Origin: Verrucomicrobiota bacterium
GTDB lineage: Bacteria; Verrucomicrobiota; Verrucomicrobiia; Opitutales; Opitutaceae
Length of the DNA stretch: 51,820 nucleotides
Direction of reading: 5' to 3'
Assembly (NCBI GenBank): GCA_030605125.1
Contig: JAUWBD010000007.1
Span: 1 to 51,820 of the forward strand
Positions within the stretch are counted from its first letter, which is position 1. Every line of letters starts with the position of its first letter. A program made the position numbers and the translations under genes. Positions 28,581-33,603 of the stretch are shown one piece after another. Below the pieces are notes generated by a model that worked only from the letters and a program-made list of their open reading frames with translations, had not been told where the DNA came from and searched no databases.

Positions 28581-30052
28581 GCGCTCCGGGCACGGTCGCG
28601 GACGAGGCGGCGCGGGCGGCCGCGCCCTCGCCGGTCGGCGGCGTGGCCGCGGCCGATCGCGTGCCCGTGGGCGAGAAGCTCGCCTATGGCTCCGGCCAGT
28701 TCGCGGCCAACCTGATGAACAACACCACCGGCAGCTTCATGCTGCCGGTCTTCGTCGTCACGCTCGGCGTCTCGCCCGCGTTGGTGAGCTTCCTCGACAT
28801 GGTTTACCGTATTTGGGACGCCATTACGGACATGCTCATGGGCTGGCTCTCCGACAACACGCGGAGCCGCTGGGGCCGCCGCCGCCCCTACGTGTTTGGC
28901 GGCGCGCTGCTCGCCGCGTTGTGGATGCCAGTCATCTGGCTGCTCGACCGCGACTGGAGCCTGCCCGCCGTCGTGGGCTGGATGATCGGCGCGCAGCTCG
29001 TGATGTTCGCCTGCACCACGATCTGGAACATCCCCTACCAGAGCATGCTGCTCGAGATCAGCCCGAGCAGCGTGGAGCGCACCAACGTCGCCGCCATGCG
29101 CGGCTATTTCAGCAAGATCGGCTGGTTCGTGATCGGCTGGCTCTGGTATCTCACGCAGCTGCCGGCCTTCGCCGATCCGGCGACGGGCAAGCCCGACACG
29201 CTCAAGGGCGCGCTCGCCGTCACCTGCGCCGCCGCGCTGCTGGTCGCGATCATCGGCGTGTTGCCGGCGGTCTTCGGGCGCGAGCGCTACTATGCCAAGG
29301 TGGCCGCGCAGGAGAAGGTGCCGCTGCTGAAAAACATCCGCCTCACCTTCCGAAACCGCCCGTTCCTGCACCTCTCGCTGCTCACGCTGCTCTTCACGCT
29401 CGGCACGCTGGCGGTGGACAACCTCGCGTTCTTCGCGCGGCTTTACCACGTGTGCGGCGGCGACCAGCAGCTCGCGGCCAAGCTCACCGGGCTGAGCGGC
29501 ACCGTCTCGGCGCTCGTGGGCCTCGCGGCCATCCCCGTGTTCCAAGCGATCGCGCGGCGCCACGGGAAACGCACCGCGCTCGTCGTCGTGATGTGCCTGT
29601 TCTTCACCTCGAGCCTCGCCACGCTGGTCACCTACCGGCCCGGGCTGCCCTACCTCACCTTGGTCAACAGCGTGCTGAGCGCGCTCGCGATGACCGCGAT
29701 ATGGGTGCTGTTGCCCTCGATGACGGGCGACGTGGTGGACCACGACGAGCTCCACACCGGCGAGCGCCGCGAGGGCGCCTTCGCGGCAATCTTTTCGTGG
29801 ATCTACAAGTTCTCGTTCTCGGTCTCGCTGGCCGTCTCCGGCCTGCTGGTGATGTGGGCCGGTTACGACGCGAAGCTCGGGGCGGCCCAGCCGGCGGAGG
29901 TCGTTTTCAGCATCCGGATGCTGCTCGCCTTCGTGCCGGCGCTCTTCATCGGCGTCGCGATCGTGCTCGCCGCGCGCTTCCCGCTCACCCCCGCGCGCAT
30001 GGCGGAGATTCGCTCGGCGCTCGAGGCGCGGCGCGGTCGGGTGTGCGGCTGA
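28577..30052 (+). CDS. GPH-type (MFS) sugar:cation symporter
   Basis: Glycoside-pentoside-hexuronide family secondary transporter, 491 residues with about 12 hydrophobic helices. Family signatures are visible: YRIWDAITDMLMGWLSDNTRSRWGRRRPY (recognised by DAITD and GRRRPY) and NIPYQSML. The cytoplasmic VPLLKNIRLTFRNRPF loop and DVVDHDELHTGERREGAF (core DHDE and GERREG) are also present. The start is GTG at 28577, sharing a GTGA overlap with the stop of the GH94 gene, so translation is likely coupled. It presumably imports the disaccharide cleaved by that enzyme. Confidence 0.9.
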   Translation: MSAPGTVADEAARAAAPSPVGGVAAADRVPVGEKLAYGSGQFAANLMNNTTGSFMLPVFVVTLGVSPALVSFLDMVYRIWDAITDMLMGWLSDNTRSRWGRRRPYVFGGALLAALWMPVIWLLDRDWSLPAVVGWMIGAQLVMFACTTIWNIPYQSMLLEISPSSVERTNVAAMRGYFSKIGWFVIGWLWYLTQLPAFADPATGKPDTLKGALAVTCAAALLVAIIGVLPAVFGRERYYAKVAAQEKVPLLKNIRLTFRNRPFLHLSLLTLLFTLGTLAVDNLAFFARLYHVCGGDQQLAAKLTGLSGTVSALVGLAAIPVFQAIARRHGKRTALVVVMCLFFTSSLATLVTYRPGLPYLTLVNSVLSALAMTAIWVLLPSMTGDVVDHDELHTGERREGAFAAIFSWIYKFSFSVSLAVSGLLVMWAGYDAKLGAAQPAEVVFSIRMLLAFVPALFIGVAIVLAARFPLTPARMAEIRSALEARRGRVCG

Positions 30053-30067
30053 AGGGCGGAGACGGGC

Positions 30068-31633
30068 TCAGCGGACGGCCTCGCGCAGGGCCGGCGAGAG
30101 CTGGTCGAGCCACTCGGTGATGCGCACCGCATGCGGACCGCGGGCGCGGGCGAGCCGATCCGCGGCAAGGCCGTGCCAGACGACGGCGCGCGCCGCCGCG
30201 ACGAGCGGGTCGGCGGGCGTCTGCGCGAGCAGGGTGCCGGTGAGGCCGGCGAGCAAATCGCCGCTGCCGCCGCGCCCGAGCACGGGGCCGCCGAAAAAGC
30301 TGTGATACACCAGACCGCCCGCGCCGGCGGTCTCGATACGCGTCAGCGGGCCTTTGCGAATGACCACCGCGCCGGGTGGAAGCGCGTCGGCGATGCGCGA
30401 ATATTCTCCGCCGTGCGGCGTGAGGACGCGGGCCGCGCGGCCGGCGGCGATGATCTCGGGCTGGAGCGCGTCGGCGTCGATGACCAACGGATGCGGCGAG
30501 AGCGCGGCGATCTCGGCGGCGAGCGCGAGCGTCTCGCGTTCGCGCCCGAGACCGGGCCCGAGCACGACGGAGCCGGCGCGCTCGAAGGCGGCGCGCACGA
30601 GGTGCAGGCCCTCGAGCGCGAGGCCGCCGTCGGGCGTCTCGGGGAGGCCCAGCCAGATCGCCTCGGGCACGCGCGCGGCGAAGGAGGGCACGAGCGACTC
30701 GGGAACGGCGGCGGTGACGAGACCCGCGCCGGATTGGAGCGCGGAGAGCGTGGCCATCAGCGCTGCGCCGGGAAAGCGGCGCGAGCCCGCGACGACGAGC
30801 GGGTGGCCGTGGTGACGTTTGTCGGCCCGCGGATCGCGCAGGCCGCCGAGCGGCGCAAGCACGCGCTCCGTCAGCACCCAATCCCGCCCCGCCTCCACCC
30901 CGAGATTGTCACCAATCTGGTGACAATCTCCGCTAGCCGCAGCCGCCTCGGCCCCCGAGCCATTGTCACCAATTTGGTGACAATCTCGCGAGGGCGGCGG
31001 GGTGAAGAAGCCGAGGTCGAGGAAGCGAATGCGGCCGGCGGAGGGGAGGCTGAGCAGCGGGGTCTTCGCGATGCCGGTCGCGTAGGTGAAGTCGGCGCGG
31101 AAGGCGTCGGGCGCATCGAGCCCGCTCGGCAGATCCACCGCGGCGCGGAGCCGAATCGGGTGGGCGTTGACCCGCGCCAGCAGGCGGGCGACGGGTTCCG
31201 ACAAAGGCGGGCGAAATTGGAAACCGAAGACGCCGTCGAGACAGAGATCGTAGCTCGCCGCCCAATCGCGTCCATCGGCGCGGACCGGCCGCGCAAAGCC
31301 CGCCACCGCGTGCAAGGCCCGCGAGGCGAGCGGACGCAGCGAGCGTTCGCCGAAGGGGAAAACCACATCGACGACGAGCGCCGGGTGGCGCTCCCGAAGC
31401 AGCGCGGCGGCGAGGAGCGCGTCGCCGCCGTTGTGGCCCTTGCCGACGAGCACGAGCACGCGCGGGGCGGCGGGCCAGACGCCAATCTCCTCGAAGTCCT
31501 TGGCGACGTTGTCGGCGAGAGCGCGGGCGGCGGCCTGCATCGCGGCCCATTCGCGGGTCTCGTCGCCGCCGAAGAGCGCGGCCTCGAAGGCGCCGGCCTC
31601 GGCGCAGCTCAGGATGGGATAGGCACCGTGCAT
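30068..31633 (-). CDS. nnrD: Bifunctional NAD(P)H-hydrate epimerase / ADP-dependent dehydratase
   Basis: Fused metabolite-repair enzyme. The N-terminal NnrE domain (about 1-210) epimerises damaged NAD(P)HX, and the C-terminal NnrD domain (about 250-521) dehydrates the S form using ADP. Visible motifs are VLVGKGHNGGDAL (61-73), AVDLPSGLDA (165-174), KRHHGHPLVVAGS, LTPHGGEYSRI and GRGGSGDLLAGLTG. The length of 521 is near normal. The interdomain linker carries two copies of DCHQIGDN (217-224 and 236-243), encoded by palindromic DNA repeats, which the family does not normally have. The repeats are in frame, so activity is probably kept. Convergent with the symporter gene. Confidence 0.95.
   Translation of the reverse strand: MHGAYPILSCAEAGAFEAALFGGDETREWAAMQAAARALADNVAKDFEEIGVWPAAPRVLVLVGKGHNGGDALLAAALLRERHPALVVDVVFPFGERSLRPLASRALHAVAGFARPVRADGRDWAASYDLCLDGVFGFQFRPPLSEPVARLLARVNAHPIRLRAAVDLPSGLDAPDAFRADFTYATGIAKTPLLSLPSAGRIRFLDLGFFTPPPSRDCHQIGDNGSGAEAAAASGDCHQIGDNLGVEAGRDWVLTERVLAPLGGLRDPRADKRHHGHPLVVAGSRRFPGAALMATLSALQSGAGLVTAAVPESLVPSFAARVPEAIWLGLPETPDGGLALEGLHLVRAAFERAGSVVLGPGLGRERETLALAAEIAALSPHPLVIDADALQPEIIAAGRAARVLTPHGGEYSRIADALPPGAVVIRKGPLTRIETAGAGGLVYHSFFGGPVLGRGGSGDLLAGLTGTLLAQTPADPLVAAARAVVWHGLAADRLARARGPHAVRITEWLDQLSPALREAVR
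30902..30930. repeat. intragenic palindromic repeat, copy 1
   Basis: A perfect inverted repeat with 13-base arms (GAGATTGTCACCA / TGGTGACAATCTC) and a 3-base centre lies within the linker of nnrD. In the gene's sense it encodes DCHQIGDN (residues 236-243). Its sense-strand 26-mer matches copy 2 at all but one base. Confidence 0.9.
30962..30987. repeat. intragenic palindromic repeat, copy 2
   Basis: An inverted repeat with 11-base arms (ATTGTCACCAA / TTGGTGACAAT, 30962-30984) extends by CTC to match the outer end of copy 1. It lies 57 bases, exactly 19 codons, from copy 1, so both encode DCHQIGDN in the nnrD frame (residues 217-224 here). The pair looks like an inserted dispersed element rather than conserved protein sequence. 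Confidence 0.9.
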
Positions 31634-31710
31634 GGCCTTGAAAAACCAGAGCGCGGAGCTGGCTTCCAGCCTGCACTTGGCACGGCGCGCGTCCCGGCAC
31701 CGCGCCGCCG

Positions 31711-33603
31711 CTATTTATCGCGCCCCCGCACGGCGAGCATCCACTCCCGGGCGGGCACGAGGTGCCGGTAGAAAAACGCCTGCATCCGGTCATCCGCCGG
31801 GACCACCCGGCGCCGACGCTCCGCCCCCTCGATCATCGCCACACCCTCCATGCGGAGCGCCAAAACCGAGGGCTCGGCCTGCCCGCTCGCCTGCAAGGTG
31901 ATCTCGGCCTTCTCCGCGCCGGCGGGCACCTCTGATTTCCCAACACGCAGCCAAGCCGGGCCATCCATCAACACGAGGGCGATCGGCCCGTCGAAGCCGT
32001 CTCGCCGCAAGGCATGGATCGTGACGGTGGCCTTTCCACCGGGGCGCAAATTCACGCTCGAAGGCTCGGCACGCAGCTCGAAATCGGGCCGCGGCGGCGA
32101 GATTCTGATCCGGTAGGCGTAGTCGTGGCCGCCGCGCCCCTGCGCGTCGCCCAGCCGCGCACGATGGATTCCAGTCACCGCAGGAGTGAAGACCAGGCGC
32201 GGGTCGGCGTGGTGGGTCGAGAGGCCGTCGCCTTTGTCCTCGCGGTCGTCGCTCATCGCCACCACCGCGCCATCCGGAGCCAGCACGTGCAACACGCCAT
32301 CGAGCGGCGAGCGCAGCCGCCGCGCCGTGACTTCGACCACAAGCGGCACGCCCGCCTCGGCCGGGAAGGAAAACTCGTCCACTTCCCCGGCGCGTTCGAT
32401 GCGGCCGTTCACCACGACCGGCGGCTCGACCGCCTGCGCGCCGCCGCCTCTTTTTTTGGGCGCCTCGCGGCATTCCGGCAGGTCGGCCGACTCGATCTCC
32501 ACCGGCCCCGTGGCGGCGAGACAGCGCCCGAGGTCGAGCTCGACCAGGCCAACCACGTTCGGGAGTCGCGCCCGCCTCGTCGGCGCGGGCAGGTTCCAGC
32601 CGTTGAGCACGAATTCCTGCTCGGTGCCCGCCGTGCCGCCGAGCGGGAAAACGCCCGCCACGAAGGGCAGCTCGCCGATGGCCACACGATACACGAAATC
32701 CTCGCGCCCGCGGTAGAGCGCATCGCGCACCAACAGCGTGTAGTCGCCGTCGGCCGGCAGCCGAAAGGCCAGCACGGGATCGGGCTGAAACCGAAAATCG
32801 TCGGCGAAGGCCAACTCGTGCCCGGCCGCGTCGAGCAAGCTCACGGTCGCCTGAAACCACCCCGGCACCGCGTCCGCCAGATACGGGATCAAGGACCGCG
32901 CGTGCACAGCCACGATTAGCCGCGCGCCCTTCTTGCCGACAAAACGAATTCGGTCGGTCTCTCCGGCGAGGATCTGGCCGTTGACCACCACGGGCGGCGC
33001 GACGCGCAGTTCGGCGTTCTCGGCCTGGGTGAGCGCGCGAGGGGAGCCCGGCTCGGGCCGCGGCATGATCGCGGTCACGGCGGGAAAGGTCGTCTCGGGC
33101 AAATCGCCCACCACGAAGACGAGCGGCGCGGACAAGCCCGCGCGCGATCTCAGCCGCAGGTCGCGCGGGCCGGGCTCGGCGTCGGGCGCGACGGCGATCT
33201 CGAGCGCGACCGCCTCCTGCAAAGCCGGCGGCAGCGCGGCCCCACCGAGGCTCGCGAGCCGGCGCTCCAGCTCGGCCACGCGCTCGGGCGCGGGCGAGTC
33301 GGCGCGTTTTTTTAGCTCCGCCAACTCCTCCTTCATTTGGTTTCGCTCCTCCGGCTTCAGCGGACGTTCGTGCCCGACCACGCGCGCGATCACGCCGCCG
33401 CCGGAGACGAATGCCTCCGCGACGCCCTGCAGTTGGCGTCCGCCCACGAACACGCGGAGCGTTTCCCCGCGCGGCGCCCCCGCCGGGTAAACGTATCCGG
33501 GCTGCGGCGTGTTTGCCGAGGGCGGCGCCGCGCCTGCCATCGCCGCGACAAATCCCCACGCGGCGACGAAGCGGAAAAAGCGAGAGAGACGAGGCGAAGG
33601 CAT
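31711..33603 (-). CDS. Secreted pre-peptidase (PPC)-type domain protein
   Basis: Exported 630-residue protein of the kind that accompanies DUF1501/DUF1549 genes in Planctomycetota and Verrucomicrobiota. A signal peptide covers about 1-26 (FFRFVAAWGFVAAMAGA). The body is beta-rich with two PPC-like modules: PPVVVNGQILAGETDRIRFV near 200 and PPVVVNGRIERAGEVDEFSF near 415. Each is followed by a segment of the LVVEV / LIVAV type and a DGDYTLLVRDALYRG-like motif. A charged helix near 80-115 resembles an insertion. No protease catalytic domain is seen. It is the third gene of the operon. Function unknown; carbohydrate or surface binding is a guess. Confidence 0.75.
   Translation of the reverse strand: MPSPRLSRFFRFVAAWGFVAAMAGAAPPSANTPQPGYVYPAGAPRGETLRVFVGGRQLQGVAEAFVSGGGVIARVVGHERPLKPEERNQMKEELAELKKRADSPAPERVAELERRLASLGGAALPPALQEAVALEIAVAPDAEPGPRDLRLRSRAGLSAPLVFVVGDLPETTFPAVTAIMPRPEPGSPRALTQAENAELRVAPPVVVNGQILAGETDRIRFVGKKGARLIVAVHARSLIPYLADAVPGWFQATVSLLDAAGHELAFADDFRFQPDPVLAFRLPADGDYTLLVRDALYRGREDFVYRVAIGELPFVAGVFPLGGTAGTEQEFVLNGWNLPAPTRRARLPNVVGLVELDLGRCLAATGPVEIESADLPECREAPKKRGGGAQAVEPPVVVNGRIERAGEVDEFSFPAEAGVPLVVEVTARRLRSPLDGVLHVLAPDGAVVAMSDDREDKGDGLSTHHADPRLVFTPAVTGIHRARLGDAQGRGGHDYAYRIRISPPRPDFELRAEPSSVNLRPGGKATVTIHALRRDGFDGPIALVLMDGPAWLRVGKSEVPAGAEKAEITLQASGQAEPSVLALRMEGVAMIEGAERRRRVVPADDRMQAFFYRHLVPAREWMLAVRGRDK

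Follow-up and report, generated by a model that had tools for sequence, protein, structure and literature searches.

Paired in-frame palindromes in the NnrE-NnrD linker of an Opitutaceae bacterium: copies of a dispersed REP-like hairpin whose kinds vary between genomes

The palindrome pair and its host gene

The window analyzed here, i.e., the 51,820-nt stretch JAUWBD010000007.1 1-51,820 of the source genome G000 (4.88 Mb, 271 contigs), carries on its minus strand a gene of 521 aa (31633..30068) coding for a fusion of NnrE and NnrD (NAD(P)H-hydrate epimerase/dehydratase). Pfam places the YjeF_N (NnrE) domain at 31064..31540 (minus strand, residues 32-190) and the Carb_kinase (NnrD) domain at 30119..30799 (minus strand, residues 279-505). 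Since the first domain ends at residue 190 and the second starts at 279, the two palindromes found in this gene both lie in the NnrE-NnrD linker. Palindrome 1 (30902..30930), GAGATTGTCACCA-ATC-TGGTGACAATCTC, has perfect arms of 13 nt around a 3-nt center, and palindrome 2 (30962..30984), ATTGTCACCAA-T-TTGGTGACAAT, has perfect arms of 11 nt around a single base. Both encode DCHQIGDN on the minus strand, at residues 236-243 and 217-224, respectively, as reckoned from the 521-aa ORF. The two 26-nt copies share 96% identity, and their starts are separated by 57 bp, with a spacer at 30931..30961; both are enclosed by a larger imperfect inverted repeat (30887..31002) with 41-nt arms that are 85% complementary. 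The coordinates, the identity, and the Pfam boundaries confirm what a preliminary description had reported, namely two near-identical palindromes 57 bases apart at the NnrE-NnrD junction, each encoding DCHQIGDN.

Searching the window for TTGTCACCAANNTGGTGACAA with at most three mismatches returned four matches, i.e., the two palindrome sites on both strands, while the mean in 100 dinucleotide-preserving shuffles of the window was 0. Compared with its shuffles, the 121-nt palindrome region folds into a far more stable structure, both as DNA (z -9.26) and as RNA (z -8.35). No known RNA family was matched at 30000-32000 beyond sub-threshold microRNA hits.

A hairpin family dispersed in the Opitutaceae

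The preliminary description proposed a dispersed palindromic element that sits in frame, and the many G000 copies in varied ORFs bear this out. A palindrome 23-mer with at most three mismatches gave 46 match rows on both strands of G000 and none with the reversed-pattern control, so the sequence is not unique to nnrD/E. The exact core TGTCACCNANNNGGTGACA occurs at 35 sites in G000 (the GTCACC/GGTGAC kind), many of them inside other genes, and a looser-core search added three GTAACC/GGTTAC sites as well as several hybrids in which the two arms are of different kinds. The preliminary description also mentioned, tentatively, similar palindromes in related genomes, and 50 of the 252 genomes in the family indeed contain the exact core (control 0), the nearest named loci with it belonging to Opitutaceae, Opitutae, and Verrucomicrobiota. 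The apex of the family spans 17 nt (GTNACC-N5-GGTNAC or GTCAAT-N5-ATTGAC), and its stem is variable, reaching about 20 paired bp in some copies; decayed copies are under-counted, as pattern searches favor palindromes. Palindromes that arose by chance or through codon use, without a common origin, are practically out of the question, being ruled out by the genome counts (46 versus 0 in G000, control 0 in 252 genomes) and by their absence from the 100 window shuffles. Palindromes 1 and 2 are copies of a dispersed element that resembles REPs and Rickettsia palindromic elements (RPEs) and is not a demonstrated member of either.

Homology around the G000 copies extends over about 25-50 bp, and further only where palindromes are paired or tripled, with a shared stretch of up to 182 bp at 69-76%. 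A longer mobile element around the copies was therefore rejected; longer matches between G000 loci sit away from the palindromes (e.g., 570 bp between L005 and L017). When the copies were considered as MITEs, no long common flanks were found, nor a clean empty site at which a target-site duplication could be read. Neither of two alleles had an exact match in viral_contigs. One G000 locus (L006, C264, ~29039-29171) holds three in-frame palindromes 57 and 57 bp apart in a single ORF with a weak GH20 match, with the palindrome peptides CHPLGD, CHQIGD, and CNPIGD. L352 (G001:C1:2022719-2023278) contains three family palindromes spaced at about 270 bp, whose flanks are alike, in the manner of tandem units.

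At 29 G000 loci checked for coding signal, with the ORF picked by its length and by a higher GC content at third than at second positions, the palindrome lies well within such an ORF in 12; the other 17 are intergenic, N-terminal, or unclear. Besides NnrE-D, the hosts, some of them named from their domains, comprise an OmpR-type response regulator, a CysJ-like flavoprotein, a PfkB kinase, an RMMBL-DNA ligase fusion, a DUF58 protein, a TonB receptor, a GH2 mannosidase-like enzyme, an alpha/beta hydrolase, and a PabB-like enzyme. Coding copies use two frames, xVTNLVTx and xCHQIGDx, and the third holds a stop. The hairpin lies between domains in NnrE-D, the response regulator, the ligase, pabB, and the TonB receptor, and within a Pfam domain in cysJ, pfkB, and the GH2 mannosidase. 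The earlier suggestion that insertion is least harmful at a domain junction thus fits NnrE-D itself but does not extend to a confinement of the family to junctions.

The kinds of hairpin differ between genomes, though not cleanly. GTNACC matches are present in all 15 genus genomes, and in G109 the GTAACC kind accounts for 75 of 76 GTNACC sites. Copies of GTCAAT-N5-ATTGAC were found in G110 (33), G113 (14), G118 (12), and G106 (4) and in none of the other 11 genus genomes, G000 included (control 0). Kinds coexist in G110, with 43 GTNACC-pattern matches (control 0; one of them, GTAACCTATTGGGTTAC, a GTAACC) alongside the 33 GTCAAT copies, and in G106, where GTAACC copies accompany the four GTCAAT ones. 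The GTNACC signal is weak or near background in G107, G113, G115, G117, and G118 (4-14 matches versus 2-5 in the reversed control).

Orthologous sites and compensated stems

We compared 110 NnrE-D loci, into which at least nine genomes enter twice. A linker hairpin of at least 8 bp was found in 16 of them, several being unrelated GC-rich ones. Outside the genus the family was recognized, with decayed copies liable to be missed, only in L097 (Rariglobus sp.) and L100 (Opitutus sp. GAS368), both with TGTCACT-TATTA-AGTGACA. The DCHQIGDN pair was seen in none of the distant NnrD/E linkers read, in line with the preliminary description. Two linkers from other genera, L178 and L119, hold an unrelated palindrome (GTGGCACGGGCTTCCAGCCCGTGCCAC, in L178) or the repeat peptides RGTGFQPV and GRDAHAT (the latter in L119), and repeats may land in the NnrE-D linker quite generally.

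Within the genus, an NnrE-D match was recovered in 10 of 15 genomes, and in nine of these ten a pairing hairpin occupies the same spot, always in the same frame, with three apex kinds (GTCACC, GTAACC, and GTCAAT). G000 and G114 carry two hairpins each of the GTCACC type with differing loops, and the loop of site 2 is inverted (AGATT in G000, AATCT in G114). The 57-bp register of the pair is common to both genomes, the spacer sequence mostly not, and the second hairpin is confined to them among the recovered same-genus orthologues; their linker segment measures 175 bases versus 76-82 in the other eight, i.e., it is 93-99 bases longer. A single imperfect GTCACC copy with 6-nt arms is found in G108, GTAACC hairpins in G109, G119, and G116, GTCAAT hairpins in G113 and G118, and a hybrid with 8-nt arms in G110. 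No pairing was detected at the hairpin spot of G106, whose GQSIKDK is a possible relic of SQSIIDK. The NnrE-D tree groups G106 with G113 and G118, places G110 as sister to G000 and G114, and joins G108, G116, G119, and G109, so that hairpin kind tracks the tree imperfectly. In G113 and G118, the NnrD part of the match contains one internal TGA (G113:C125:3831-4634 and G118:C96:5998-6801).

The comparison was extended to eight more host genes in six relatives. In cysJ, G114 (same kind as G000) and G119, G109, and G116 (all GTAACC) have a same-frame hairpin, and five of six orthologues share its spot and frame; G108 is hairpin-free at equal length, and a close orthologue from G110 was not recovered. 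In pabB, the hairpin is shared by G114, G110 carries a GTCAAT-type hairpin of 41 nt that keeps the frame, and four relatives have none. The abhydrolase hairpin is likewise shared by G114, while GCATTTTGTAACCAAATTGGTTACAAAATGC occupies the site in G108 without a shift of frame, and three relatives have none; in G110, the closer copy (L305) ends at a contig edge before the site and a distant copy (L300) is hairpin-free. In pfkB, G114 shares the hairpin, and in G110 GTCAATCAATGATTGAC occupies that place in another frame, which would fit an independent arrival; other relatives were not recovered. The ligase has two hairpins in G114 and a pair in G108 (one mixed-arm, one GTCACC; CNQFGDK and CHQFGDK) in the frame of the G000 copy, so that one frame is common to G000, G114, and G108; G116 has none, and the matches in G109 and G119 end at residue 366, short of the linker. 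The mannosidase hairpin is shared by G114 and lacking in three relatives, both recovered relatives lack the DUF58 hairpin, and the response regulator returned only distant homologues (36-39% identity), which are uninformative on its site.

Overall, four genes besides NnrE-D (cysJ, pabB, abhydrolase, and pfkB) have, in one relative or another, a hairpin of a different kind at the corresponding position, and 14 gene-genome cases are empty. The hairpin in pabB and the mannosidase accompanies 2-5 extra residues; added length is, however, not required, as the comparison of cysJ with that of G108 indicates.

Whether the stems keep their pairing while their sequence changes was assessed in alignment A1, with 26 orthologous-site hairpin sequences. 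It excludes the hairpin-free orthologues of cysJ (G108), mannosidase (G108, G110, G116), pabB (G108, G116, G119, G109), abhydrolase (G109, G119, G116, L300), DUF58 (G109, G119), and ligase (G116), together with the ligase rows, the second NnrE-D hairpin of G114, G000 DUF58, G114 pfkB, and the G000 mannosidase rows. Paired cells amounted to 88.1% versus 67.9% after shuffling (reached by 0/500 shuffles), and covariation to 0.445 versus 0.142 (sd 0.022; 0/500); related sequences can beat shuffles in such a test, and the slid versions, which preserve relatedness, stayed at or below 0.093. Two of the five measures were not outstanding, namely pairs changed on both sides (7 versus 6.1 shuffled, reached by 174/500) and further pair types (15 versus 12.6, reached by 54/500). 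Beyond the apex, the match of an arm to its own partner exceeds that to the arms of other copies in four sets (29, 1, 2, and 0 of 5000 shuffles reach the observed value), with own-arm versus other-arm matches of 0.597 versus 0.496 in G109 and G119 together, 0.578 versus 0.426 for GTCAAT, 0.515 versus 0.379 for other family members, and a modest 0.509 versus 0.459 in G000. Own-arm pairing was without clear excess in G119 alone. Stem changes are compensated, and the structure is what is kept.

Possible origin of the shared hairpins

These comparisons make the NnrE-D linker hairpin look like an old site with in-place replacement rather than a newly inserted element. We lean slightly towards the reading that the two palindromes are copies of a REP-like Opitutaceae hairpin family at an old linker site, at which the hairpin has been replaced in place by the current kind. 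One copy would have entered the linker before the genus diversified, as the shared position and frame suggest, and would have persisted because the element can be read through in two of the three frames and its peptide is tolerated in the linker; the lineage of G000 and G114 would have acquired a further copy at a distance of 57 bp. At shared sites another kind current in the genome in question would have taken the place of the hairpin, the copies being exchanged as single-stranded hairpins, probably at replication forks, through a trans-acting hairpin-recognizing enzyme or through template switching at the fork. An HUH/Y1-type nuclease is the leading guess for an enzyme of spread and exchange, and template switching inside the hairpin would keep the arms matched and flip the loop. 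Short-patch illegitimate recombination is another possible exchange route. The element is most likely selfish or neutral, and a benefit to the host is not needed. The 14 empty cases, the coexisting kinds, the absence of either core from the 19 Y1_Tnp loci examined, and the failure of the kind to follow the NnrE-D tree cleanly run contrary to in-place replacement, which is not complete genome by genome since kinds coexist in G110 and G106.

The preliminary description had the element simply entering the gene, and the dispersed nature of the element stands, while a simple recent entry seems at odds with nine of ten orthologues sharing spot and frame with three kinds. Nonetheless, a mobile palindrome that simply inserts in frame, like the Rickettsia palindromic elements, could account for shared positions as repeated hits on hot spots, i.e., on existing hairpins or tolerant linkers and not on inherited sites. 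The coexistence of kinds in G110 and G106, the 93-99 additional bases in the G000 and G114 linkers, the different frame of the G110 pfkB hairpin, and the unrelated palindrome (L178) and GRDAHAT peptide (L119) in the linkers of other genera speak for this explanation. We consider it unlikely, given the spot and frame common to nine of ten NnrE-D and five of six cysJ orthologues, the equal length of the hairpin-free cysJ of G108, and the ligase frame common to G000, G114, and G108; with about 80 copies per 4 Mb, we estimate a chance coincidence within 60 bp at ~0.1% per site.

The hairpins might instead be putative binding sites of a dimeric DNA-binding protein (chromosome-organizing or silencing) that have co-evolved into species dialects, with the coding copies tolerated. 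Such a role, which we find quite improbable, would suit the tens of sites per genome, the strictly palindromic apex, the near uniformity of G109, and the close pairs of G000 and G108, whose preferred distances (54-57 and 65-67 bp) differ by roughly one helical turn. Pairing, however, reaches into copy-specific outer stems that a sequence-reading protein would not need, a change of kind would take 2-4 substitutions at dozens of sites, and pair spacings are unrestricted (46 to 179) in G109 and among the G119 pairs listed. Strict helical phasing, suggestive in G000 and G108, was rejected on its absence in G109 and among the listed G119 pairs. An action in mRNA, e.g., slowing ribosomes between domains to aid folding, is very improbable: the strong RNA fold (z -8.35) and the copies between domains in NnrE-D, the response regulator, the ligase, pabB, and the TonB receptor are set against copies inside domains (cysJ, pfkB, GH2) and outside coding ORFs, and against same sites that are empty in many relatives.

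Beyond in-place replacement at the NnrE-D linker, the 20-40 bp hairpins may be in concerted evolution at inherited sites, including those in protein-coding genes, their stems being rewritten to the prevailing kind of the species with pairing kept, a broader proposal that we hold possible, with the balance tilting against it. If true, it would imply either a co-evolving factor that binds hairpins or a hairpin-specific exchange or conversion machinery for which the hairpin alone provides the homology. As to how REP-like hairpins spread and remain alike, the sites can here be traced base by base, as a natural series in which one gene stretch has, from species to related species, hairpins of the same architecture but different spelling. 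Besides, the host proteins reveal which peptides are tolerated in enzyme linkers and even within domains.

Relation to known repeat systems

Tags were sought near the apex in five partly overlapping flank sets. GTAG within 22 nt occurred in 0/86, 1/64, 0/36, 0/46, and 3/66 flanks (reversed-flank control 6, 2, 1, 1, and 5), and GTAG or GTGG in 8, 4, 1, 1, and 7 (control 14, 5, 1, 2, and 7). CGTC was found in 5/86, 7/64, 6/36, 1/46, and 8/66 (control 5, 4, 3, 4, and 5), i.e., slightly over the control in three sets and equal or under in two, without consistent excess. The GTNACC and GTCAAT cores were both absent from 19 Y1_Tnp loci of 1.8-3.3 kb in G000 and five relatives (three loci, in G106, overlap one another; G110, G113, and G118 were left out of this search), and a RAYT/IS200-type carrier beside the palindromes was rejected on this count. 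Y1_Tnp loci such as L051, L053, and L284 hold other hairpins or none. In L053 and L051 (G000:C146 and C172), Y1 transposase genes lie near other palindromes, GCGCAGGCATTCCTGCCTGCGC and GCACGGGGCTCCCGCCCCGTGC, which apparently represent separate REP families of G000. No exact core of the Opitutaceae family was found in G173, which we take to be O. terrae PB90-1.

REPs with GTAG and CGTC tags have been described, with RPE-4 and RPE-6 classed with a CGTC end, and in the excerpted text of the same study Opitutus terrae has the most intragenic GTAG repeats, one of them in a DNA ligase (Di Nocera et al. 2013, PMC3733652). The GTAG REPs described there are small scattered hairpins that occur alone or in pairs, the spacers mostly measuring 20-100 bp, and have variable complementary stems. 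The Opitutaceae family resembles them in that it consists of dispersed 20-40 bp hairpins that are often paired; it differs in having neither a GTAG/GTGG tag nor a Y1 transposase nearby. The same excerpt mentions a Xanthomonas pair with different REPs at about the same recB site, and beyond this remark it contains no genus-wide replacement at orthologous REP sites (PMC3733652). The REP/TnpA-REP systems, as far as covered by the excerpt of PMC8266576, likewise involve hairpins handled as single strands, some with perfect palindromes around 3-4 nt, but they use a GTAG guide motif that is absent from the Opitutaceae family. Template switching between inverted repeats, with arm homogenization and spacer inversion (PMC8604942, in excerpt), and coding palindromes (PMC6649704, in excerpt) fit the compensated stems and flipped loops; on the other hand, they act within one repeat and leave the dominance of one kind at dozens of sites unexplained.

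Occurrence in frame in functional protein genes is shared with Rickettsia palindromic elements and CGTC REPs, and the earlier likening to the former holds as an analogy but not as kinship: the phylum is another, the Opitutaceae sites are kept across species with changed stems, and the CGTC end is not consistently enriched. Among open-licence PMC papers, subscription papers being outside the scope, no prior description of the family was found by title or abstract. In-frame REPs are already known in this bacterial family, and the tagless Opitutaceae hairpins would, from their sequences, be a variant new to the open-licence PMC literature.
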